A DNA stretch of 46,293 bases from Pyrinomonadaceae bacterium. GTDB lineage: Bacteria > Acidobacteriota > Blastocatellia > Pyrinomonadales > Pyrinomonadaceae. The stretch's first letter is position 1, and every line of letters starts with the position of its first letter. Shown in pieces: positions 2,760 through 44,997 of the stretch. The DNA is taken from contig JACCYN010000261.1 of NCBI GenBank assembly GCA_013696465.1, forward strand, positions 1 to 46,293. Direction: 5' to 3'. The translations under genes and the position numbers were made by a program. The notes beneath the pieces were generated by a model. It was given only the letters and a program-made list of their open reading frames with translations, made no database searches and was not told where the DNA came from.

Positions 2760-3683
2760 ATGACCCTCGCAGTTGCTGAAAACATTGTGGAGATCGTCGG
2801 GCACACGCCGATGCTTCGCCTCGCTAGATTCGCCCGCCCGCCGCTCGCCGACATCTACGCGAAGCTTGAATACCTGAATCCCGGCGGCTCCGTGAAAGAT
2901 CGCGCCGCACTGGGGATGATCCTTGAAGCCGAACGCGACGGTCGCCTTCGCCCCGGCGCGACCATCATCGAACCGACGGCCGGGAACACCGGCATCGGGC
3001 TTGCCCTCGTCGGCGTGGCGCGCGGTTACCGCGTGATCCTGTGCGTGCCCGAAGGCTACTCGCGCGAAAAGATGAAGGTGATGGAAGCCTTGGGCGGCGA
3101 GATCGAATACGTCTCGAAGGAGGCGGGGATGAAGGGCGCGATTGAGCGGGCGCGCGAGTTGTGCGATCAGATTCCTGACAGCTTCGTGCCGCAGCAGTTT
3201 GAGAATCCGGCGAATCCGTGTTACCACGAAGAGACGACGGCGAAAGAGATCATCGAGCAGATGGAAGGGCGCATTGACGCGGTGGTGATGGGCGCGGGCA
3301 CGGCTGGAACTTTTACGGGCGTGGCGCGCGCGGTGAAAAAGATTAACCCGCAAGCGTTCTGTGTGCTCGTCGAACCGGAGGGATCGATCTTCGGCGGCGG
3401 AAAGCCGGGATCGCACAAGGTTGAAGGCATCGGGCAGTCGCAATTCATTCCACCCGTCTACGATTGTCGCGTGGTGGACGAAGTGATGATGATCACCGAC
3501 GCGGAAGCTTATGCAGTGGTGCGCAAACTCGCGCAGACGGAAGGCGTTTTGTGCGGCGGCTCTTCAGGAGCGGCCGCGGCCGGGGCGCGCCGCATCGCCG
3601 AACGTCTCGGCGCGGGCAAGCGCGTCGTCACGCTTCTGCCCGACGGCGCCGAACGCTACATGAGTCAGGGAATTTTTGATTAG
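2760..3683 (+). CDS. cysK: cysteine synthase / cystathionine beta-synthase-type PLP enzyme
   Basis: A 307-residue fold-type II PLP enzyme. GGSVKDRAA carries the PLP lysine (K46), EPTAGNTGIGL is the substrate loop, GAGTAGTFTG is the phosphate-binding glycine loop, and GGSSGAAAAGA lies near the C-terminus. These are O-acetylserine sulfhydrylase / CBS family marks. It makes cysteine from O-acetylserine and sulfide, or cystathionine from a serine derivative and homocysteine. There is no CBS regulatory domain and no N-terminal heme region. The gene directly downstream encodes a cystathionine gamma-synthase/lyase, so the pair may do reverse transsulfuration (MccA/MccB style) rather than plain cysteine synthesis. 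Sequence alone does not separate the two. It is read divergently from kdsB. Confidence 0.9.
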   Translation: MTLAVAENIVEIVGHTPMLRLARFARPPLADIYAKLEYLNPGGSVKDRAALGMILEAERDGRLRPGATIIEPTAGNTGIGLALVGVARGYRVILCVPEGYSREKMKVMEALGGEIEYVSKEAGMKGAIERARELCDQIPDSFVPQQFENPANPCYHEETTAKEIIEQMEGRIDAVVMGAGTAGTFTGVARAVKKINPQAFCVLVEPEGSIFGGGKPGSHKVEGIGQSQFIPPVYDCRVVDEVMMITDAEAYAVVRKLAQTEGVLCGGSSGAAAAGARRIAERLGAGKRVVTLLPDGAERYMSQGIFD

Positions 3684-3757
3684 TAAGCTGTGAGCAGTAA
3701 GCAGTGAAGACAAACCTGCTTTTCCTGCTGCTCACAGCTTACAGCCTACTGCTCGCT
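3682..3757. repeat. heptad-type inverted repeat between the two PLP enzyme genes
   Basis: The left arm reads as heptads TAAGCTG TGAGCAG TAAGCAG. The right arm is the reverse complement type (CTGCTCA CAGCTTA CAGCCTA CTGCTCG). GTAAGCTGTGAGC pairs perfectly with GCTCACAGCTTAC. It begins at the stop codon of the upstream gene and ends about 7 bases before the downstream ATG, leaving no room for a Shine-Dalgarno sequence. It is one of about a dozen such elements in the window. Confidence 0.85.
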
Positions 3758-3764
3758 AACACTT

Positions 3765-4904
3765 ATGGGTTTTTCAACAAAAGCGATTCACGCAGGAAAT
3801 GAACCTGACCCGACGACGGGCGCGGTCACAGTTCCGATTTATCAAACCTCGACTTACGCGCAAGAGGGACTCGGCAAACATAAAGGCTTCGAGTATGCGC
3901 GGACGCAGAACCCGACGCGGCTTGCCTTAGAGCGCAACATCGCCGCGCTTGAAGGAGCGAAGTTCGGCTACGCTTTCGCGTCGGGAATGGCGGCGATTGA
4001 TGCCATCTTGCGTTTGGTGCACGCAGGCGATCACGTTATCGTCTCCGATAACACTTACGGCGGCACGTTCCGCCTTTTCACGCGCATACTTTCAAATTAC
4101 GGAATTGAGTTTAGCTTTGTTGACACTTCGGACGCTTCAAATGTTGAAGCGGCGATCAAAGACAACACGCGGATGGTGTTTCTAGAAACGCCGACGAACC
4201 CCGTGATGATCATCTCGGATTTGCAAGCCGTCTCCGACGTGGCTCACGCGCGCGGCGTCCGCGTCGTCTGCGACAACACGTTTATGTCGCCTTACCTGCA
4301 ACGCCCGATGGAGTTCGGCGTTGACATCGTCGTGCATTCGACGACGAAGTATTTGAACGGCCATTCGGACGGCGTGGGCGGCGTCGCCGTTCTTAACGAT
4401 GAGAAAGATGCCGAGTGGCTTGGCTTTGTGCAAAACGGCGCGGGCGCGATCCTCTCGCCGTTCGATTCGTGGCTTGTGTTGCGCGGCACAAAGACGCTTG
4501 CCGTGCGCATGGAGCAACACGACAAGTCGGGGCGCGCAATCGCGGCGTTTCTGGAAGAGCATCCGAAGGTCGAGAAGATTTACTATCCGGGTTCGCTCTC
4601 ACACCGCCAACACGATCTCGCCAAGCGGCAGCAAAAAGGTTTCGGCGGCATGGTCGCTTTCGATGTCGGCTCGCTTGAGCGGGCGCGCACAGTTCTTGAA
4701 GCGGTGCGATTATGCACGCTGGCCGAAAGCTTAGGCGGGGTGGAGACTTTGATTTCTCATCCGGCGACGATGACGCACGCCTCAGTGCTCGTGGAGACGC
4801 GCCAGCGCATCGGCATCACTGACGGACTTGTGCGCATCTCCGTCGGGCTTGAGGACACGGAGGACATTATCGCCGACCTCGATCAAGCGTTAGATAAGGC
4901 ATAG
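3765..4904 (+). CDS. cystathionine gamma-synthase / gamma-lyase family PLP enzyme
   Basis: A 379-residue member of the Cys/Met-metabolism PLP family (fold type I), full length for the family. It starts STKAIHAGNEPDPTTGAV and has YARTQNPTR. The PLP lysine is K195 in HSTTKYLNGHSD, and VETLISHPATMTH near the C-terminus contacts substrate. Family members either join O-succinyl/acetyl-homoserine to cysteine (MetB) or split cystathionine to cysteine, ammonia and 2-oxobutyrate (CGL/MccB). The pairing with a CysK/CBS-like gene 81 bases upstream favours transsulfuration, in which direction is open. No Shine-Dalgarno is visible; the ATG follows the end of an inverted repeat. Confidence 0.92.
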   Translation: MGFSTKAIHAGNEPDPTTGAVTVPIYQTSTYAQEGLGKHKGFEYARTQNPTRLALERNIAALEGAKFGYAFASGMAAIDAILRLVHAGDHVIVSDNTYGGTFRLFTRILSNYGIEFSFVDTSDASNVEAAIKDNTRMVFLETPTNPVMIISDLQAVSDVAHARGVRVVCDNTFMSPYLQRPMEFGVDIVVHSTTKYLNGHSDGVGGVAVLNDEKDAEWLGFVQNGAGAILSPFDSWLVLRGTKTLAVRMEQHDKSGRAIAAFLEEHPKVEKIYYPGSLSHRQHDLAKRQQKGFGGMVAFDVGSLERARTVLEAVRLCTLAESLGGVETLISHPATMTHASVLVETRQRIGITDGLVRISVGLEDTEDIIADLDQALDKA

Positions 4905-4910
4905 TCGAAA

Positions 4911-4988
4911 AGTAATGGCTGATGCATGATGAGCAATGAGCGAAAAACTTGTTTTTACTCGTCACGCATGACTCATCACTCATCACTC
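4911..4988. repeat. heptad-type inverted repeat before the PP2C gene
   Basis: The left arm has GTAATGG CTGATGC ATGATGAGCA ATGAGCG. The right arm has ACTCGTC ACGCATG ACTCATC ACTCATC. The loop contains AAAAACTTGTTTTT. The right arm is followed by a run of T and then the ATG of the phosphatase gene, with no Shine-Dalgarno. Read as protein, the arm creates a false N-terminal extension (FLLVTHDSSLIT) in the ORF track. Confidence 0.8.
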
Positions 4989-4996
4989 TTTTTTTT

Positions 4997-5941
4997 ATGA
5001 TCGTAGATTTATATGCAAAGACGGACATCGGGCGTGTTCGTCAAGGCAATGAAGATAACTTGCTCGTGCTTGACTTGTCGTCGGCGCGTTCGTGGGCGGG
5101 TACAGACGGGGTGCGCCCGCCGGAAGAGTTGTGCCGCGTTAAAGTCGGAGGCGAAGGCATCGTTTTAGTTGTTTCGGACGGCATGGGCGGCGCGCTCGCG
5201 GGCGACGTAGCGAGCCGCATGGCGGTCGAGACGGTGCGCGATCTGCTCGTCGAAAGCAACGCGGACGAAGCAAACAAAAGAGGTAAAAGTAACGGCGAAG
5301 ATGCGACGCTCATTGATCGTCTGCGTGATGCCACCGTCTACGCTAACCTTGCAATTCACCATCGCGGGCAGGAAGACGCGCGCTATGCCGGGATGGGCGC
5401 GACGTTTACGGGCGCGGCGATCACGAATGGCACGCTCGATCTTCTGCAAGTCGGCGACAGCCGCGCTTACGTCGTTCGCGGCTCCGAGATAAAGCAGGCG
5501 ACGAAAGATCAATCGCTTGTGCAGCAACTCGTTGATGTCGGGCAGATCAGCGAAGAGGAGGCGGAGACGCATATGTTTCGCAACGTGATCCTCCAAGCCC
5601 TCGGCGCGCAAGGCGAACTCGCGCCCGTAACGGTGCGCGTCCGCGTTAGTCAAGGCGATATGCTGCTTCTATGCAGCGACGGTTTATCCGGCAAACTACG
5701 CGCTGAAGATATGCAGATAATTCTTGAAGCGTCTGGCGGCGACATGATTAAAGCCTGCGACAAACTCATTGACGAAGCGAATTCTCGCGGCGGCGAAGAC
5801 AACATCACCGTCCTGCTCGCGCGCTTCACCGGCGACGATATCCCCGCGCCCGACTCCGATCCGATCACGGTCGAACTTCCCTACATGGAAGACGACACAA
5901 CTTTTAGCGGGGACGAAGAAAATGCCACCGCACAGTTATAA
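4997..5941 (+). CDS. PP2C-family Ser/Thr protein phosphatase
   Basis: A 314-residue metal-dependent phosphatase (PPM/PP2C) of the compact bacterial type, with no added domain. The motifs run in order: KTDIGRVRQGNEDN with the first metal Asp region, VSDGMGGALAGDVAS, GMGATFTGA, VGDSRAYV, LLLCSDGLSG and GGEDNITVLLA. All metal-ligand aspartates expected from these motifs are present. The last 35 residues are acidic. It would dephosphorylate Ser/Thr-phosphorylated proteins, and the window also encodes a Ser/Thr kinase at 17.9-19.7 kb, a possible opposing partner though not adjacent. The start at 4997 is preferred to 4949 because the first 16 track residues are translated from the inverted repeat. 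tsaD follows after 80 bases. Confidence 0.93.
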   Translation: MIVDLYAKTDIGRVRQGNEDNLLVLDLSSARSWAGTDGVRPPEELCRVKVGGEGIVLVVSDGMGGALAGDVASRMAVETVRDLLVESNADEANKRGKSNGEDATLIDRLRDATVYANLAIHHRGQEDARYAGMGATFTGAAITNGTLDLLQVGDSRAYVVRGSEIKQATKDQSLVQQLVDVGQISEEEAETHMFRNVILQALGAQGELAPVTVRVRVSQGDMLLLCSDGLSGKLRAEDMQIILEASGGDMIKACDKLIDEANSRGGEDNITVLLARFTGDDIPAPDSDPITVELPYMEDDTTFSGDEENATAQL

Positions 5942-6021
5942 ATCGCAAGCGGTTATAGTCAAGTGCTCCGCCTTCCGTCCCTTCTTGTTTCCCGGCAAGC
6001 TCATACCTTTAGGCTTCCACC

Positions 6022-7098
6022 ATGCTCGTTCTCGGAATAGAAAGTTCATGCGATGAAACGGCCGCTGCAATTGTGCGCGACGGGCGGGAACTCGTCTCCT
6101 CCGTCATCTCTTCGCAAACTAAAACTCACGAACGCTTCGGCGGCGTTGTCCCCGAACTCGCTTCGCGCGAACATCTCGAAAAGATCGTGCCCGTCGTCGA
6201 GGAAGCCTTCGCGCGCGCTGAAGTGGGCAAACAGGAAATTGACGGCGTGGCGGTAACTTCAGGGCCGGGGCTGATCGGTTCGCTGCTCGTCGGGCTTTCC
6301 TTCGCCAAGGGAATGGCTTACGCGCTGGGGCGGCCGCTCGTTGGAGTCAACCACATCGAGGGACACATTTACTCGGTGGTTTTTGAAAACCCTCCGGTCG
6401 AATACCCGGCGCTCGCGCTCATCGTCTCCGGCGGGCACACGAATCTTTTTCTCGTTGAGGAGCCGGGAGTGTACCGGACGCTTGCGCGCACGCGCGACGA
6501 TGCTGCGGGCGAGGCGTTTGACAAAGTGTCGAAGATGCTCGGATTGGGTTATCCGGGCGGCCCCCTGATCGAACGACTTGCGACGGAAGGCGACGCGCGC
6601 GCCGTTCGTTTCAAAGTGCCGCGCATGAGCGACCGAAGTTTGGATTTTAGTTTCAGCGGGCTGAAAACGGCTGTTATGAAACATCTGCGCGAAACGGAGT
6701 TGGTTACGTTTGATGAAGAAGGTGAACCGACGCAAGCGGCGAAGAATTTAGCCGCAAGTTTTCAGAGCGTCGTGGTGCGTTCGCTCGTCACAACTGCCGA
6801 ACATTTCGCCGTCGAATACGAACCGCGCACGTTGATCGTCGCGGGAGGCGTGGCGTGCAACAAATCGCTGAGAGAGGCGGCGGGCGCGGCGGCGGCGCGT
6901 CTCAATATCAACGCCTATTTTCCTTCAGCGCATTTGTCAACCGACAACGCAGCGATGATCGCCGCCGCAGGAACAGTGAAACTTCAGGCGGGCGCGCACG
7001 CGAACCTTGACCTGAACGCCGATGCGTCTCTACGTCTCCTGGATGTTAACGCGGAGCAAGATAAAATCGGACGCGGCAAGGTGCATTACCGCTTGTAA
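6022..7098 (+). CDS. tsaD: tRNA N6-adenosine threonylcarbamoyltransferase
   Basis: TsaD transfers the threonylcarbamoyl group from TC-AMP to A37 of ANN-decoding tRNAs (t6A), together with TsaB and TsaE. The 358-residue protein starts MLVLGIESSCDETAAAIV, the family's ATPase-fold start. It keeps the metal-binding HIEGH (H111, H115), GGHTNLFLV, the FSFSGLKTA motif and IVAGGVACN, and has the usual length. It lies 80 bases after the phosphatase gene on the same strand. tsaB and tsaE are not in the window. A strong hairpin follows the stop codon. Confidence 0.97.
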   Translation: MLVLGIESSCDETAAAIVRDGRELVSSVISSQTKTHERFGGVVPELASREHLEKIVPVVEEAFARAEVGKQEIDGVAVTSGPGLIGSLLVGLSFAKGMAYALGRPLVGVNHIEGHIYSVVFENPPVEYPALALIVSGGHTNLFLVEEPGVYRTLARTRDDAAGEAFDKVSKMLGLGYPGGPLIERLATEGDARAVRFKVPRMSDRSLDFSFSGLKTAVMKHLRETELVTFDEEGEPTQAAKNLAASFQSVVVRSLVTTAEHFAVEYEPRTLIVAGGVACNKSLREAAGAAAARLNINAYFPSAHLSTDNAAMIAAAGTVKLQAGAHANLDLNADASLRLLDVNAEQDKIGRGKVHYRL

Positions 7099-7116
7099 TG
7101 TAGATTCTAAAATTTG

Positions 7117-7151
7117 AAAGCCGCCTTGCTACGAGGTGCAAGGCGGCTTCA
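7117..7151 (+). terminator. hairpin after tsaD
   Basis: AAGCCGCCTTGC (7118-7129) pairs perfectly with GCAAGGCGGCTT (7138-7149) around an 8-base loop. Only a short T stretch follows on the plus strand, but the stem is strong. It sits between convergent tsaD and the 7191 gene and could serve both strands. Confidence 0.7.
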
Positions 7152-7190
7152 AGTGCCGGAGATTTGAGGGACGCTTTTCGCGTCAGCTTT

Positions 7191-7544
7191 CTACCGGCGA
7201 GACCGTGCTATTTGCGAATTGTTAGAAATGGCGATATTTCTTGCAAGTTTCACCGGGCTGTCGGCGTCAAGTTCAACGGTAATAATGTCTCCCTCGCGCA
7301 CGTCTTTCAAAGAAATAGCGCGCCCACTTACAGACACTTTCGTTCCGCTCTCGTTTATTGCGATAACATGTTCAACTCCCGTTTGAGCAATGACAGAGAT
7401 GCGCGCATCGGACACTTCGACAACTTTCGCGTCAACAATGCGTGAATCCGTGTCAGTACTGCCGTCATTTGCGGCAAGCGCGGCGGATGAAAATAAAGTT
7501 AACAGTAATGCTGCACAGATACTCGTGATTTTGTGTTGCTTCAT
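7191..7544 (-). CDS. small exported protein of unknown function
   Basis: 117 residues from the ATG at 7544, which has a good Shine-Dalgarno (GAGGACAAATAGTT before ATG). The ORF track's longer start (7772) would hide an otherwise clear signal peptide: MKQHKITSICAALLLTLFSS, then AALAA before the mature N-terminus. The mature part (about 90 residues) is rich in short beta-like segments (VDAKVVEVSDARISV, GDIITVELD) with two alternating Val/Ile blocks. It resembles small periplasmic beta-barrel or DUF5666-like proteins, but I cannot assign a family. It converges with tsaD, and nothing nearby hints at its job. Confidence 0.7.
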   Translation of the reverse strand: MKQHKITSICAALLLTLFSSAALAANDGSTDTDSRIVDAKVVEVSDARISVIAQTGVEHVIAINESGTKVSVSGRAISLKDVREGDIITVELDADSPVKLARNIAISNNSQIARSRR

Positions 7545-7783
7545 AACTATTTGTCCTCGCTTTGCACTTTCTTCGTTTGGAGAAGAATTCTTATCTGCCA
7601 ACACTTTAGGCAAAGAGTATGCCGAAACAACAATGTTGAATGATAATCGGCATAAACCACTAATTTGATTGCTCTTAAAACGTTTGGTCAATAAATATCC
7701 GGTAATAGGTTTCGTTCTTAAGTAAATCAACCCGCGTACAATGTTGACGCGATTTGTATTGATACCAAACATTCCAAAATAAA
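7545..7783. other. non-coding stretch upstream of the small exported protein
   Basis: AT-richer than its surroundings, with no convincing ORF. It holds a 31-base imperfect palindrome (7621-7651) with GCCGA/TCGGC ends and a short inverted AACA/TGTT core. No promoter with good hexamers and spacing was found here by eye. Confidence 0.5.
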
Positions 7784-7813
7784 CAGGTCGCCTTCCAGAT
7801 TGAGGGCGACCTG
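7784..7813 (-). terminator. rho-independent terminator of the heat-shock operon
   Basis: CAGGTCGCC (7784-7792) pairs with GGCGACCTG (7805-7813) around a 12-base loop. Read on the minus strand, the stem is followed by TTTATTTT, a U-rich tail. It lies 27 bases past the dnaJ stop codon, so it ends the hrcA-grpE-dnaK-dnaJ transcript. Confidence 0.8.
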
Positions 7814-7839
7814 TTCGTGAAGGCGAGTTTTCCGAAGCT

Positions 7840-8973
7840 CTAGCCGAAGATGTTTCGCACTTTATCGATCAACCCTTCGTCTTGAACGTCTTTATCTTCG
7901 ATATCGGCGAGTTGTTCGAGGATGCGGCGCTGTTCGCGCGTGAGCGTCGTCGGGGTAACGACCGTCACGGAAACGAAGAGATCGCCGCGCCCGCGTCCGC
8001 CCAAGATCGGCATCCCCTGATTCTTGAGGCGAAAGACCGTTCCCGTCTGCGTGCCCGCCGGAATCTTCACCCCCTGATCGCTGTCAAGCGTTGCGACCGT
8101 GACCTCCGAGCCGAGCGCGGCTTGCGCGAATGTGACGGGGACGCTCGCGTAAAGATTGCTTCCCTGCCGCTCAAACCGCTCGTGTTCCCCGACGTGGATG
8201 ACAACGTAGAGATCGCCTGCGGGGCCGCCCTGCGCGCCCGCCTCGCCTTCGCCCGCGATGCGCAGACGCGAACCCGTCTCGACGCCCGCCGGAATCCTCA
8301 CCTCCATCGTCCGCTCTCGCTCAACGCGCCCCGCCCCCCGACAAGTTTCGCACGGCGTTTTTGTGATGCGCCCCGTGCCGCGACACGTCGCACAGGTGCG
8401 GGCAACCGAGAAGAAACCTTGCTGATAGCGAACTTGACCGGCGCCGCCGCACGTCGAACAGGTTTCGGGTTGCGTGCCGGGAGCCGCGCCCGTGCCTTCA
8501 CAGGTGTCGCAAGCTTCGAGGCGCGGAATGCGCAAGTTGGCGGTCATGCCGCGCGCGGCGTCTTCGAGCGTAATCTCCAGATCGTAGCGCAGGTCAGAGC
8601 CGCGTTGCGCGGCCGTGCGGCGCGCGCTGCCACCGCCGCCAGCGCGCCCGCCGAACACGTCGCCGAAGCCGAAGAGATCGCCGAGGATGTCTTCGATGCC
8701 GCCGAAACCGGCCGCTCCGCCCCAGTTCGCTCCCGCGCCTGCGCCGGAAACGCCCGCGTGACCAAAGCGATTATAACGCGCGCGCTGATCGCGGTCGGAA
8801 AGCACCGAGTAAGCTTCGGCCGCTTCTTTGAATTTCTCTTCCGCCGCCGCGTCGCCCGGATTTTTATCCGGGTGAAATTGGACGGCGAGTTTACGGTAGG
8901 CGCTTTTTAATTCCACATCGCTCGCGCCGCGCCCGACGCCAAGCACTTCATAATAATCTCGTTTGCTGCTCAT
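7840..8973 (-). CDS. dnaJ: chaperone DnaJ (Hsp40)
   Basis: DnaJ delivers unfolded clients to DnaK and stimulates its ATPase. The 377-residue protein is a full type I DnaJ. It has a J domain (residues 1-70) with HPD at 34-36, then a Gly/Phe/Ala-rich linker. Four CxxCxGxG zinc motifs follow ([32 protein letters not shown]), then the C-terminal beta-sandwich domains. It is the last gene of the hrcA-grpE-dnaK-dnaJ operon, 89 bases after dnaK, and a terminator follows. The spacer before it holds an inverted repeat, and no Shine-Dalgarno is visible next to the ATG. Confidence 0.98.
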
Positions 8974-8985
8974 TTATTAACAGAA

Positions 8986-9060
8986 GAAGTAACAAGCGAC
9001 GGGTCACAAGATAAAAAGTTTGATTCTCACTTGCCGCCCGTCACTCGTCTTTGTTCACTA
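8986..9060. repeat. heptad-type inverted repeat between dnaK and dnaJ
   Basis: On the plus strand the left arm reads AGTAACA AGCGACG GGTCACA AGAT. The right arm, reverse complemented, reads AGTGAAC AAAGACG AGTGACG GGCGGCA AGTGAGA. The arms are less well matched than in other members, but the 7-base period and the placement just upstream of a start codon are the same. Confidence 0.6.
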
Positions 9061-9062
9061 CA

Positions 9063-10919
9063 TTATGTGTCGCTTGATTCGGATGATTGATTTGACGATC
9101 TGCCGTTCGGTTCAGATGGTTGATTTAACATGAGCGTTGTAAGCTGCGCACCAAGTTGTTCGACCGCAGCGGTCGCCCCCCGTATCTCATCAGGGTCGTC
9201 GGATTTTGTTTTCGCTTCCGCTTCCTGCAGCGTACCGCTCGCTGCTTGCCTTTCTTCGCTCGACAGTAAGTTGCCAAACTCCGTGAGCGTGCGTCGCGTG
9301 TTACGCATAAGGCTCTCCAGCTTGTTGCGCAGGCCTACCACCGTTTTAGTTTGACGGTCGGTGTCTGCGGCGTCCGCCGCTTCGAGCATCAAGCGTTCGA
9401 TTTCATCCGGCGACAAACCTGAACTCGGCGTCACGCGCAACTCCTGCTGGCGTCCCGTGTTCTTCTCCTGCGCCGACACAGAAAGAATGCCGCTTGCGTC
9501 AACCTCAAACGTCAACTCGATCTGCGCCGCGCCGCGCGGCCCGGGCGGAATGCCAACAAGCTCAAACTTGCCCAACGAACGATTGCCTTCGGCCACTTCG
9601 CGCTCGCCCTGAAGGATGTGCACCTCAACCGATGATTGATTATCAACGACCGTCGTAAACGTCAGCGTGTTGCGCAAAGGGATCGTTGAATTGCGGTCAA
9701 TGACTTTTGTGAACAACCCGCCGCGCGTCTCGACGCCGAGGCTCAAGGGCAATATGTCTAAGAGCACAATGTCTTTCACGTCGTTCGTCAACACGCCGCC
9801 TTGAATCGCCGCGCCCATCGCCACCACTTCGTCGGGGTTGATCTCCGCCGAAGGCTCGCGCCCGAAGATTTCCTGCACGGTGCGATGGATGATGGGCGAG
9901 CGCGTCTGACCGCCGACGAGCAACACTTTGTCAATGTCGCCCCCCCTGAGTTTCGCGTCCCAGAGAGCTTTCTGGCACGGCTCGATGGTTTGCTCGACGA
10001 GATCGCCGACGAGGTTTTCAAAGCCGTCGCGCGTCAAAGTCTTGATAAAGTGTTTCGGCCCCGAAGCGTCGGCGGCGATGAAGGGCAGGTTGATGTTCGT
10101 TTCCGTGAGCGACGAGAGTTCGCATTTGGCGCGTTCGGCCGCTTCTTTGAGGCGCTGTAAGGCAAGCCGGTCTTGGCGCAAATCAATGTCGGTTTCGTTG
10201 CGAAACTCGTCGATCATCCAGAGGGCGATGCGCTCGTCAAAATCTTCGCCACCGAGAGAAGTGTTGCCGGAAGTTGAGAGAACCTCGAAAACGCCGTCGT
10301 TGATTTCAAGCACGGAAACGTCGAACGTGCCGCCGCCGAGATCGTAGACGATGACGCGCTCGGATTCGCTGCGTCCGAGGCCGTAGGCTAAGGCGGCGGC
10401 GGTCGGCTCGTTGATGATGCGGTCAATCTTGAGTCCGGCGATCTTTCCGGCGTCCTTCGTCGCCTGTCGTTGCGTGTCGTCGAAATACGCGGGCACGGTG
10501 ACGATGGCTTCGGTGACGGACTCGCCGAGAAAATCTTCGGCCGCTGCCTTCAATCGTTGCAGGACAATGCCGGAGATTTCCTGCGGACTGTAGACGCGAT
10601 CCTGCACGCAGAGGCGCGCGTCGCCGTTCTCCGATGCGACGATCTCAAAGGCGGACGTTTCCCGCGCACGCTCAACTTCGGGCGAATCGTATTTACGACC
10701 GATGAGACGTTTGACGGCGTAGACGGTGTTCGCCGCGTTCGTCACCGCCTGCCGCTTGGCCATCTGCCCGACGAGGCGCTCGCCTTTATCGGTGAAGCCG
10801 ACGACGGAAGGCGTCGTGCGCCCGCCTTCTTTGTTCGGGACGATCTGCGTTGCGCCGCCTTCCAAAACCGCGACGCAGCAGTTCGTCGTTCCTAAATCAA
10901 TTCCGATTATTTTACCCAT
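9063..10919 (-). CDS. dnaK: chaperone DnaK (Hsp70)
   Basis: ATP-dependent Hsp70 chaperone. From the ATG at 10919 the protein begins MGKIIGIDLGTTNCCVAVLE, the invariant Hsp70 start. The track's earlier start at 10946 is a TTG giving nine non-family residues. The nucleotide-binding domain shows VPAYFDDTQRQATKDAG, NEPTAAALAYG, VYDLGGGTFDVS and LLVGGQTRSP. The substrate domain shows LLDILPLSLGVETRGG. At 618 residues it is slightly shorter than E. coli DnaK, with a short Ser/Asn-rich tail instead of an EEVKD-type end. It is the third gene of the hrcA operon and follows grpE after about 70 bases. Confidence 0.98.
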   Translation of the reverse strand: MGKIIGIDLGTTNCCVAVLEGGATQIVPNKEGGRTTPSVVGFTDKGERLVGQMAKRQAVTNAANTVYAVKRLIGRKYDSPEVERARETSAFEIVASENGDARLCVQDRVYSPQEISGIVLQRLKAAAEDFLGESVTEAIVTVPAYFDDTQRQATKDAGKIAGLKIDRIINEPTAAALAYGLGRSESERVIVYDLGGGTFDVSVLEINDGVFEVLSTSGNTSLGGEDFDERIALWMIDEFRNETDIDLRQDRLALQRLKEAAERAKCELSSLTETNINLPFIAADASGPKHFIKTLTRDGFENLVGDLVEQTIEPCQKALWDAKLRGGDIDKVLLVGGQTRSPIIHRTVQEIFGREPSAEINPDEVVAMGAAIQGGVLTNDVKDIVLLDILPLSLGVETRGGLFTKVIDRNSTIPLRNTLTFTTVVDNQSSVEVHILQGEREVAEGNRSLGKFELVGIPPGPRGAAQIELTFEVDASGILSVSAQEKNTGRQQELRVTPSSGLSPDEIERLMLEAADAADTDRQTKTVVGLRNKLESLMRNTRRTLTEFGNLLSSEERQAASGTLQEAEAKTKSDDPDEIRGATAAVEQLGAQLTTLMLNQPSEPNGRSSNQSSESSDT

Positions 10920-14759: not shown

Positions 14760-15323
14760 ATGGCAATTCCAGCAACTCAGATCAGGCGCGGCATGGTGAT
14801 CGTTTTCGAGGGGCAGCCCTGCAAGGTGGTTGAATTCCGGCATCACACGCCGGGAAATTTGCGCGCGATGGTGCAAACCAAACTTCGCAACGTGCGCACC
14901 GGCGCGTCCTTCGAGCATCGCTTTCGCTCCGCCGACACGGTGGACAAAGCTCAGATGGAGCAGCACGAGATGGAGTATCTCTACTCGGACGGCTCAAGCC
15001 ACCACTTTATGAACACGGAAAATTATGAGCAAACCGCTTTGTCGGAAGAAGATTTAGGCGACATGGCGCAGTGGCTCACGCCGGGGCTTCGTATTCAAGC
15101 CGAATTCTACGAAGGCGCGCCCATCGGCATCGAACTTCCCGCTTCGCTTGAATTCACCGTGACGCGCACCGAGCCGACGATCAAAAGCGCGACCGTCTCG
15201 AACGTCAACAAACCGGCCACACTTGAGAACGGCGTGACGATCCAAGTGCCGCCCTTCGTCAACGAAGGCGACCGCATCCGCGTCTCCCCCGTCGAAAGTC
15301 GCTACATCGAACGAGCGAAATAA
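14760..15323 (+). CDS. efp: elongation factor P
   Basis: EF-P binds between the ribosomal P and E sites and rescues stalling at polyproline runs. The 187-residue protein has the usual three-domain length. It has [38 protein letters not shown] and the C-terminal ending [18 protein letters not shown]. In the domain I loop the sequence is [15 protein letters not shown], so the position aligned with E. coli K34 is Asn (N33). It is therefore neither the lysine nor the arginine used for beta-lysylation or rhamnosylation. No modification genes (epmA/B/C, earP) are in the window. waaA follows across an inverted repeat. Confidence 0.97.
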
Positions 15324-15328
15324 CATAA

Positions 15329-15403
15329 GTAATGAGTGATGAGTAATGAGCGATGAGAAAAAGATGTTGTTCTTACTCGTCACTCATTACTCATCACTCA
15401 TAA
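15329..15403. repeat. heptad-type inverted repeat between efp and waaA (clearest member)
   Basis: The left arm reads TAATGAG TGATGAG TAATGAG CGATGAG. The right arm reads TACTCGT CACTCAT TACTCAT CACTCAT. The arms match at 24 of 26 aligned bases around a loop of about 18 bases. It fills the spacer completely, starting 5 bases after the efp stop codon and ending 2 bases before the waaA ATG, where no Shine-Dalgarno exists. Confidence 0.9.
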
Positions 15404-15405
15404 CT

Positions 15406-16746
15406 ATGTATCTCTTCTACAGCCTTCTGCTTACGCTTGGCTTCCTTCTGCTGCTTCCGCGTTTCCTTTACGATGCGTTGCGGCACGGCAAGTATGCGGC
15501 GGGTTTTCGCCAGCGTTTAGGTGAACTGCCGCAGTTTGACGGGCGCGGGGAAGGACAGATCATCTGGTTGCACTGCGTCTCGGTCGGCGAAACGCAAGGG
15601 GCACGCAGCTTCGCGGAGACGCTTATGAAGCGTTACCCTTCGCACAAAATCGTCGTCTCCACCACCACGCTCACCGGGCAGAGAGTTGCGCGTGATGTCT
15701 TCAAGGAAGTGGCTGCGCTTGTCTTTTATTTTCCTTTCGATTGGGCATGGACGGTGCGACGCGCGCTCGACCGTATCGCTCCATCACTTGTTTTGGTGAT
15801 GGAGACGGAACTGTGGCCACATTTTCTTCGTCAATGCCGGAGTCGCGGCGTTCCAGTCGCAGTGGTCAATGGGCGCATCTCCGAAAAATCGTTTCGCCGC
15901 TACGCGCTCGTCAAGTTTTTTATGCGCAGGGTTTTGAACGACGTAACGCTCGCCGTCATGCAGGCCGAGACGGACGCCGCGCGCATCGAAGCGCTCGGAC
16001 TTCCCCCCGCACGCATCAAGGTTTCGGGCAATTTGAAGTTCGACGCGCAACTTGATAGTGGCGGACACGCTTTACCCGACGAGCTTTCGGCGCGCTTCAA
16101 TTTCAAAGATAAACAACGTCCTCTCATTGTCGCGGCCAGCACGCACGCGCCGGAAGAAAGAATTTTATTAGAAGCGTTTCGTAAAATTCAACTTCAACTT
16201 CGTGCGAACGAATCGAATTTGCTTGAACCCCGATTGCTCGTCGCCCCGCGTCACCCCGAACGCTTCAGTGAAGTCGCAACGCTGATTCAAGCTTCAAATT
16301 TCTCATGGACGCGCCGCACGTATCCGGCATCGCCCAGAGATGCCGATTGCGAAACTATTTTACTCGACACCATCGGTGAACTGCCGCACGTTTACTCGCT
16401 TGCCACGATTGTCTTCGTGGGCGGCAGCCTCGCGCCGTACGGCGGGCACAACATCCTCGAACCGGCCGCCGCCGGAGTCCCCATCGTGACGGGCGCGCAC
16501 ACGCACAACTTCGCTTCCGTTACAAAGACTTTTCTTCAGCGCGAAGCGTTGCTGCAACTGCCCGCAGTCGGAGATGAACAAGCTCCTGACCTGTTAGCGC
16601 GCGTTCTCATAGATTTACTCCAAGATACGGACAAACGCTGTCGCCTCGGCGCAAACGCTTTCCGCGCGCTTGAAGATAATCGCGGCGCATCGAACCGCAC
16701 GCTCGAATTCTTAAAGCCGCTTTTCGAGCAACGAGAAATGCCCTAA
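15406..16746 (+). CDS. waaA: 3-deoxy-D-manno-octulosonic acid transferase
   Basis: WaaA (KdtA) adds KDO from CMP-KDO to lipid IVA at the inner membrane, a GT-B enzyme. From the ATG at 15406 there is an N-terminal membrane anchor (SLLLTLGFLLLLPRFLYD) and then RLGELPQFDGRG. HCVSVGETQGARSF carries the catalytic Glu region, followed by VLVMETELWPHFL and the C-terminal GGHNILEPAAAGVPIVTG with HTHNF. Length is 446, slightly above E. coli's 425. The track start at 15346 translates the inverted repeat (FLLVTHYSSLIT) and is rejected. It is followed by lpxK, and kdsB at 1.8 kb supplies its donor. Confidence 0.95.
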   Translation: MYLFYSLLLTLGFLLLLPRFLYDALRHGKYAAGFRQRLGELPQFDGRGEGQIIWLHCVSVGETQGARSFAETLMKRYPSHKIVVSTTTLTGQRVARDVFKEVAALVFYFPFDWAWTVRRALDRIAPSLVLVMETELWPHFLRQCRSRGVPVAVVNGRISEKSFRRYALVKFFMRRVLNDVTLAVMQAETDAARIEALGLPPARIKVSGNLKFDAQLDSGGHALPDELSARFNFKDKQRPLIVAASTHAPEERILLEAFRKIQLQLRANESNLLEPRLLVAPRHPERFSEVATLIQASNFSWTRRTYPASPRDADCETILLDTIGELPHVYSLATIVFVGGSLAPYGGHNILEPAAAGVPIVTGAHTHNFASVTKTFLQREALLQLPAVGDEQAPDLLARVLIDLLQDTDKRCRLGANAFRALEDNRGASNRTLEFLKPLFEQREMP

Positions 16747-19847: not shown

Positions 19848-19886
19848 GAAAGCGGGCGCGGCCATTGCGCGGCCGCGCCCGCTTTC
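19848..19886 (-). terminator. terminator hairpin after atpE
   Basis: GAAAGCGGGCGCGGCC (19848-19863) pairs perfectly over 16 bases with GGCCGCGCCCGCTTTC (19871-19886) around a 7-base loop. It lies 23 bases past the atpE stop. There is no long U tract on the minus strand, but the stem is one of the strongest in the window. Confidence 0.75.
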
Positions 19887-28148: not shown

Positions 28149-28156
28149 AAGCAAAG

Positions 28157-28279
28157 TATGAAGTAGGAGGGATGAAGTCGGAAGTTGGAACAAAGCTAAA
28201 AGCTTTCACTTAAGATTTCAAATCGTAGATTCACGCCTTTAAGCGTCCCTACACTTCATCTGTTCCTACTTCGTCCTTT
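28157..28279. repeat. heptad-type inverted repeat between prfA and the histidine phosphatase gene
   Basis: The left arm carries GAAGTAGGAGGGATGAAGTCGGAAGTTGGAAC-type sequence (GAAGTNG heptads). The right arm, reverse complemented, has GACGAAGTAGGAACAGATGAAGTG. The loop is long (about 55 bases). The right arm ends 5 bases before the next ATG, with no Shine-Dalgarno. Confidence 0.7.
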
Positions 28280-36062: not shown

Positions 36063-36079
36063 AGATTTTAGTTGTGAAA

Positions 36080-36142
36080 CCGTCAGCGTTCAGCTATTTG
36101 AACTGTTCTTTGTTTGGGCTGAATGCCGACGGCTGAACGCTT
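36080..36142. repeat. heptad-type inverted repeat upstream of obgE
   Basis: The left arm reads CGTCAGC GTTCAGC. The right arm reads GGCTGAA TGCCGAC GGCTGAA CGCTTAA. GCGTTCAGC pairs perfectly with GCTGAACGC. It lies between the rpmA terminator and the obgE TTG start, which has no Shine-Dalgarno. Confidence 0.75.
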
Positions 36143-36153
36143 AAAATATAACA

Positions 36154-36192
36154 ACGCCCGGCGCTCTGGGTTTCGTCTCCCGGCGCGGGCGT
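36154..36192 (-). terminator. terminator after rpmA
   Basis: ACGCCCGGCGC (36154-36164) pairs with GCGCGGGCGT (36183-36192) with one bulged base around an 18-base loop. On the minus strand a T-rich stretch TTGTTATATTTT follows. It separates rplU-rpmA from obgE. Confidence 0.65.
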
Positions 36193-40008: not shown

Positions 40009-40014
40009 GATTGG

Positions 40015-40119
40015 GATTTCTGATTCTTGATTTGCGATTTTTGATTGATCGCGTTGCGAGATTGAATTAACAACCAGAGGTTTTCAAATCGCAAATCGGC
40101 AATCAAAAATCCGAGATTT
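40015..40119. repeat. AT-rich heptad-type inverted repeat between rpoA and rplQ
   Basis: The left arm reads GATTTCT GATTCTT GATTTGC GATTTTT GATTGAT. The right arm has CAAATCG CAAATCG GCAATCA AAAATCC. It occupies nearly the whole 113-base spacer. It shares its GATTTGC/GATTTTT units with the repeats at 42020, 43003 and 44908. Confidence 0.82.
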
Positions 40120-42019: not shown

Positions 42020-42117
42020 AATTTTAGATTTGCGATTGCTGATCTTTGATTTAACAATTAAAAGGTTAAATCAAAGTCACGACTTTCGTTTCGATCAAAA
42101 ATCTAAAATCAAAGATG
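42020..42117. repeat. AT-rich heptad-type inverted repeat between rpsK and rpsD
   Basis: The left arm reads GATTTGC GATTGCT GATCTTT GATTTAA. The right arm has GATCAAA AATCTAA AATCAAA GATG. TTTTAGATTT pairs with AAATCTAAAA. It begins right after the rpsK stop codon (minus strand) and leaves about 100 bases to rpsD. Confidence 0.78.
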
Positions 42118-42521: not shown

Positions 42522-42530
42522 AATTGAAAC

Positions 42531-42598
42531 GATGAACGCGGAAGGATGAACGCAGAACTGTTTTCACTTTATCGTTCCGCGTTCATCCTTCATACTTT
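42531..42598. repeat. inverted repeat between rpsM and rpsK
   Basis: The left arm has GATGAACGCGGAAGGATGAACGCAGAAC. The right arm, reverse complemented, has GAAGGATGAACGCGGAAC. GGATGAACGC occurs on both arms, and twice in tandem-like form on the left. It fills the spacer between the two ribosomal genes and ends 9 bases from the rpsK ATG. Confidence 0.78.
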
Positions 42599-43002: not shown

Positions 43003-43086
43003 CCAGATTTTCGATTTTTAGTCTCCGACACGAAAGCGCAACTTCAAAATCACGGAGCGACTAAATCAAAAATCGCAAATCCAAAA
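43003..43086. repeat. AT-rich inverted repeat between rpmJ and rpsM
   Basis: The left arm is GATTTTCGATTTTTAGTC. The right arm is GACTAAATCAAAAATCGCAAATC. Most of the two arms pair. It is the same GATTTGC/GATTTTT family as at 40015 and 44908. Confidence 0.75.
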
Positions 43087-44907: not shown

Positions 44908-44997
44908 ATTTTGATTTTAGATTTGCGATTTTTGCTTTAACAGAATCTGCGATCTCAAATATGAAATTCAGAGCGCAAATCAAAAATCGCAAATCTT
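44908..44997. repeat. AT-rich heptad-type inverted repeat between secY and adk
   Basis: The left arm reads TTTTGAT TTTAGAT TTGCGAT TTTTGCT. The right arm has GCGCAAATCAAAAATCGCAAATC. It fills the spacer between the two genes to within a few bases on each side. Confidence 0.82.

Follow-up and report, generated by a model that had tools for sequence, protein, structure and literature searches.

Intergenic hairpins in the genome of a Pyrinomonadaceae bacterium are real, and their arms, built from degenerate seven-base units, are unit-for-unit inverted copies of each other, beyond being merely two arrays of one word. We propose, with a probability of roughly 40%, that they are dispersed self-renewing palindromes, which would be copied by template switching and persist through tolerance at the 3' ends of genes. 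The window, by which we mean the whole stretch of 46,293 nucleotides that was analysed, corresponds to contig C70 in the draft metagenome genome (3.29 Mb) of this soil bacterium (Acidobacteriota, Blastocatellia). The relatives used for comparison were found by way of WaaA and are Pyrinomonadaceae and Blastocatellia MAGs.

The best example lies between efp, encoding elongation factor P (14760–15323, plus strand; NCBIfam TIGR00038, E 3e-67), and the Kdo transferase gene waaA (15403–16746, plus strand), which matches the NCBIfam PRK05749 family with E-values down to 2.4e-108, yet under the curated cut-offs. About 5 nt after the TAA stop codon of efp, the 5' arm begins (15328–15360, plus strand) and runs through the degenerate heptads AGTAATG AGTGATG AGTAATG AGCGATG, as seen by repeat search, TRF and a shuffle test. 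It is followed by a loop (15361–15372, from the repeat search) and by a 3' arm that repeats the 5' arm in inverted orientation and in register (15373–15405, plus strand; repeat search and RNA fold) and extends into the waaA start codon. More specifically, the repeat search gives arms of 33 nt each, 88% complementary and separated by 12 nt, and TRF reports period-7 and period-14 arrays in each arm. Folding of the 91-nt RNA yields −48.3 kcal/mol, compared with −15.7 ± 3.0 for shuffled sequences (z = −10.9), and in this fold the waaA AUG is paired at the base of the stem with the bases directly after the efp stop. Rfam models gave no gathering-level match in the window.

Inverted repeats had been claimed for eleven spacers of the window from sequence alone, and each of these sites was scored singly for stem and heptad signal against 300 dinucleotide shuffles. 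Stems were significant at nine of the eleven (p 0.003–0.017), and the period-7 signal reached p ≤ 0.05 at ten. The stem falls short of significance at two sites, namely a degenerate TGATGAG-type hairpin 5' of a PP2C phosphatase gene (site 4911; 4920–4985), where the stem is marginal (p 0.06; heptad p 0.003), and the degenerate AGTGACG-type dnaK/dnaJ spacer (site 8986; 8992–9048), which is non-significant on its own (stem p 0.29, heptad p 0.17). A hairpin with perfect 15-nt arms and the unit RTAAGCW/GTGAGCA (3683–3742; stem p 0.003) separates a cysK-like gene from a cystathionine gamma-synthase/lyase-like gene, and a GAAGTAG/GATGAAG hairpin with a 74-nt loop follows prfA on its 3' side (28153–28279; stem p 0.007). 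The GTTCAGC/GCTGAAC hairpin at 36071–36155 is 75% complementary, with a core stem at 36085–36141 (p 0.017). A GATTTTT/GATTTGC hairpin in the rpoA/rplQ spacer has 27-nt arms of 85% complementarity (40014–40112; stem p 0.003), and the same type of unit is found in a divergent spacer holding one or more hairpins (42021–42116; stem p 0.013), at 43006–43081 (stem p 0.003) and at 44919–44996 (arms 20 nt, 95%; stem p 0.003). The remaining site, at 42528–42591, carries an AACGATG/AACGCGG hairpin (stem p 0.003). The arms, described as spanning 20–35 nt, are often shorter, with 10–16 nt at several sites. Two other features of the window were recorded along the way: a perfect 16-bp GC-rich stem with a 7-nt loop (19848–19886), which is ordinary, terminator-like and unlike the heptad hairpins, and an unusually long ribosomal protein L17 (39292–40008; 238 aa) that weakly matches the 'sunset domain variant' model.

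Beyond the window, figures for the genome come from sampled contigs, some of which were picked in the first batch for TGATGAG matches. An unbiased sample of 226 kb from the same genome contained 144 spacers, of which 25 reached a stem score of at least 24, against none of 432 shuffles. Across 469 kb, the best period of the stems was most often lag 7 (41/94), with 15 stems for the next commonest lag. The sequence-only reading was right that the hairpins do not represent copies of a single element and that the two arms track each other; its further statement that every locus has its own unit is wrong. TGATGAG/TAATGAG is common to sites 4911 and 15329, GATTTTT/GATTTGC to 40015, 42020, 43003 and 44908, and both of these, together with AACGATG, recur at many further loci of the genome.

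The internal order of the arms was assessed by comparing them in and out of register. Arm identity was 0.88 in register versus 0.76 after the unit order was shuffled, and higher in all 34 hairpins. Polarity is fixed: in 498 of 498 pairs of hairpins with similar arms, the word stands in the 5' arm. The 5' arms are rich in purines and poor in C (A 36, G 28, T 24, C 11%) and contain AGT in 86 of 132 cases versus ACT in 5, and GGG is absent from nearly all words, with few exceptions such as CTGGGTG in genome G114. Pairs with similar words make up 16% within genomes versus 8% between genomes. Between hairpins of the same word, unit order is slightly more alike than in shuffled controls (0.845 vs 0.806), and loop likeness is not raised overall (0.389 vs 0.374, p = 0.2). 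Individual families go further, as in GTAGGCA, where arms, unit order and loop are common across loci and two species. Independent generation at each locus, as had been suggested, is not supported: words recur over loci and genomes in one polarity, and together with the unit order and even loops shared in some families, this points to shared descent or copying. A candidate conserved apex motif, TAAGAACAAG, was dropped, since it is not strong outside the TGATGAG family of genome G000. Hairpins of like build with nine-base units, resembling AGTTTAGGA / AGTCTGGAA, were observed in efp-waaA spacers (L299 of G047, L311 of G035, L303 of G060 and L291 of G029), so the period in some genera is not always seven.

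A placement census covering 1.13 Mb from eight genomes located heptad hairpins in 80 of 520 co-directional spacers (15%), 24 of 132 convergent spacers (18%) and 9 of 121 divergent ones. The last class is thus depleted (9/121 vs 104/652, p = 0.016), and co-directional and convergent spacers do not differ (p = 0.43); an early excess of co-directional over convergent spacers disappeared in the larger sample, where the divergent depletion alone held. The hairpin starts a median of 2 nt past the stop codon. Once it is subtracted from a co-directional spacer, a median of 9 nt is left, so that the hairpin essentially is the spacer. The residue is at most 20 nt in 57 of 80 cases, and spacers of that size make up 1.8% of hairpin-free spacer DNA.

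To follow the hairpins through related genomes, we compared orthologous spacers. A heptad hairpin occupies the efp-waaA spacer in 36 of 73 genomes of the family, from 16 of the 24 genera sampled, and hairpins are also present in the rpoA-rplQ, dnaK-dnaJ and prfA-flanking spacers of many relatives; many orthologous sites have none. Persistence of a site between genomes has an odds ratio of about 3, dominated by the efp-waaA junction, so the pairs behind it are not independent. Genomes G052 and G053, whose waaA genes are 97% identical, have the same efp-waaA word, whereas G114 has GGTGCTG and G115 has TTCAAAG, though their waaA genes are 92.8% identical. Both G011 and G116, which are further apart, have CGTRAAC, and G051 and G053 (89%) differ in word at three neighbouring junctions of one region. 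Presence and absence also vary between close species, with one spacer of 95 nt in G114 versus 30 nt in G115. In L254 of genome G105, the efp-waaA arms are nested and made of two words, GGCAGGA outside and ATTTTCC inside, with a centre common to G106 and G107; these arms look like a partial replacement. As had been anticipated, hairpin form is kept in related genomes while sequence changes, and the shape of the hairpin seems to outlast its sequence. Compensatory changes, which had been suggested as a test, give an ambiguous picture: two paired changes are visible between G011 and G116 and arguably some in G048/G049, with none in G052/G053. By single linkage, 32 of the 36 efp-waaA words fall into one cluster, and the number of distinct words therefore depends on the threshold. 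Given that words grade into each other and that same-word loops show no significant overall gain in likeness, some of the turnover may have come about by stepwise drift. Heptad hairpins were also found in other Acidobacteriota and in a groundwater Deltaproteobacteria MAG, where one contig (L119, about 3657–9900) has four of them, with the words CTAATTT, AATTACA and GAAGTCA.

Taken together, the uniform polarity, the sharing of words and their replacement in blocks favour copying between loci over separate origins. The hairpins consist of a degenerate heptad array, a short loop and then an in-register inverted copy, and they occupy the whole gap after a stop codon. Replication may stall at such a palindrome, upon which the nascent strand would switch template. 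A switch to the opposite arm would keep the arms matched, and a switch to a heptad palindrome elsewhere in the genome would import a new word as a block, with the AGT core common to the heptads possibly serving as microhomology; slippage by whole units would change array length. Hairpins would be retained at the 3' ends of genes since insertions are tolerated at these places, and in mRNA they would form a stem-loop reaching from one gene's stop codon to the start codon of the next. That the copying proceeds by template switching, and that persistence is due to tolerance more than to strong selection, is our inference. Genome comparisons caught no copying event with clean boundaries, and the proposal leaves the period of seven unexplained. 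Tolerance alone would predict a looser placement than the flush one observed, which could reflect selection or targeting. Loss of SbcCD was considered as an enabling factor and set aside as uninformative: G002 alone passed the SbcD cut-off, with weak partial matches elsewhere, and some hairpin-poor genomes likewise lack SbcD.

Copying could also be the work of a mobile element. It is possible, if less probable than template switching, that the hairpins are MITE-like non-autonomous palindromes, each word being an element family moved in trans by a putative transposase into stop-start junctions. This would fit words common to several loci of one genome, the GTAGGCA family, and the presence or absence of hairpins between close species such as G114 and G115. 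However, loops are generally unshared, and presence/absence alignments inspected by eye showed no target-site duplication or constant ends, at a divergence too high to exclude them. REP and REPIN elements are short extragenic palindromes at gene ends, with conserved sequences and a RAYT gene. The heptad hairpins resemble them in size and position, but Y1_Tnp, the one transposase family searched, has no match in six hairpin-bearing genomes (G000, G007, G011, G053, G114 and G115), and REP/RAYT mobilisation is disfavoured on that account; Y1 is also abundant in several genomes with few or no hairpins seen. Y1-rich genomes hold non-heptad palindromes, CACAGACTTCAGTCTGTG and CCACCTGCGTTAGCGGGTGG (L277 of G120, L258 of G003 and L020 of G009), which may be classical REP. 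Purely local mutation, with slippage generating heptads and quasi-palindrome correction generating arms at each site alone and no exchange between loci, appears improbable. Among longer repeats, heptads are the most frequent class in many bacteria, with polymerase slippage proposed as their cause (PMC4679880, PMC4692102), and the words do form a continuum; yet such a process predicts random polarity, against the uniform orientation of all 498 pairs, and it sits poorly with the same words at several loci and genera and with wholesale word change between close species. We regard as equally improbable a trans-acting system that writes the current word of a genome into existing spacer hairpins in one polarity, by which unlinked hairpins would switch together between close species.

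A different question is whether the hairpins act in the transcript. They may be RNA stem-loops kept by selection on pairing alone, which at the 3' ends of genes would protect or separate messages within operons or bring stop and start codons together for translational coupling. Slightly less probable than the MITE-like reading, this explanation is favoured by a start so close behind the stop codon, a filled spacer, the depletion between divergent genes, the pairing of the waaA AUG in the example, and recurrence at rpoA-rplQ, dnaK-dnaJ and efp-waaA orthologues. Against it, hairpins are missing at many orthologous sites, and mismatches read in the sense of the transcript show no excess of G-U over A-C (67 vs 73, p = 0.67), a weak test, since terminator-like control stems are also unbiased (10 vs 13). 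Intrinsic transcription terminators with unusual stems would likewise lie at gene 3' ends, at the similar co-directional and convergent rates observed, but a T-run follows the stem in only 15 of 83 co-directional hairpins and hairpins occur within operons, for example rpoA-rplQ, making this the least probable reading of all.

Structures of this kind are already known piecemeal, from Xanthomonas, cyanobacteria and Geobacter. The suggestion that no such class had been described was thus mistaken: paired convergent heptamer arrays are on record in Xanthomonas (PMC4692102), and 7-bp STRR hairpins in cyanobacteria (PMC2670836). For the Xanthomonas word GGGAATC, Rehm et al. (2015, PMC4692102) reported 70–75 cases of two convergent degenerate heptamer arrays, one on each strand, usually between the same genes in two species and mostly transcribed, to which the authors assigned no function. 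Those pairs and the hairpins here share degenerate 7-nt arrays, fixed inverted pairing, a position near stop codons and rarity between divergent genes. They differ in that Xanthomonas has one G-rich word per genome, read as G-quadruplexes (PMC4692102), whereas many non-G4 words coexist here; the GGG-tract quadruplex unit is not a trait of these hairpins, whose 5' arms average 28% G. Further differences from Xanthomonas (PMC4692102) are that here the two arms match in register and that closely related species can have different words. Cyanobacterial STRR fold into intergenic hairpins, for example at hupS-hupL and upstream of hoxW, and were described case by case with function unassigned (PMC2670836), and we found neither a polarity rule nor word turnover for them in the open-access literature. 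A hairpin on a plasmid of Nostoc cf. commune SO-36, with 45-nt heptad arms and a 10-nt loop, matches our example over 95% of its length in the same polarity; when plasmids were searched for hairpins of four further words, a single partial match came up, again cyanobacterial. In Geobacter metallireducens, classes 1–3 of 'global regulator binding sites' are paired tandem 7–8 nt repeats on opposite strands at variable distance, with MTYCTGA as the class 3 word and an association of some class 1 sites with insertion sequences; these are few families in one genome, interpreted as regulator sites (PMC2700814). The TAACTGA repeats of Beggiatoaceae are heptads of intergenic regions that lie near start codons, carry stops in every reading frame and are scattered over phyla, and they form direct arrays (169 sets) with one inverted case (PMC4679880). 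For many words coexisting and turning over under one polarity rule at conserved sites, no description was found in the open-access literature.

The scattered reports from Xanthomonas, cyanobacteria, Geobacter and Beggiatoaceae are joined here in one architecture with testable rules, namely heptad arms, in-register inversion, fixed polarity, an AGT core and a position flush with the stop codon. A single spacer common to dozens of species offers a natural system for studying the copying and rewriting of palindromes. Any effect of the hairpins on expression would bear on core operons, rpoA-rplQ and dnaK-dnaJ among them.
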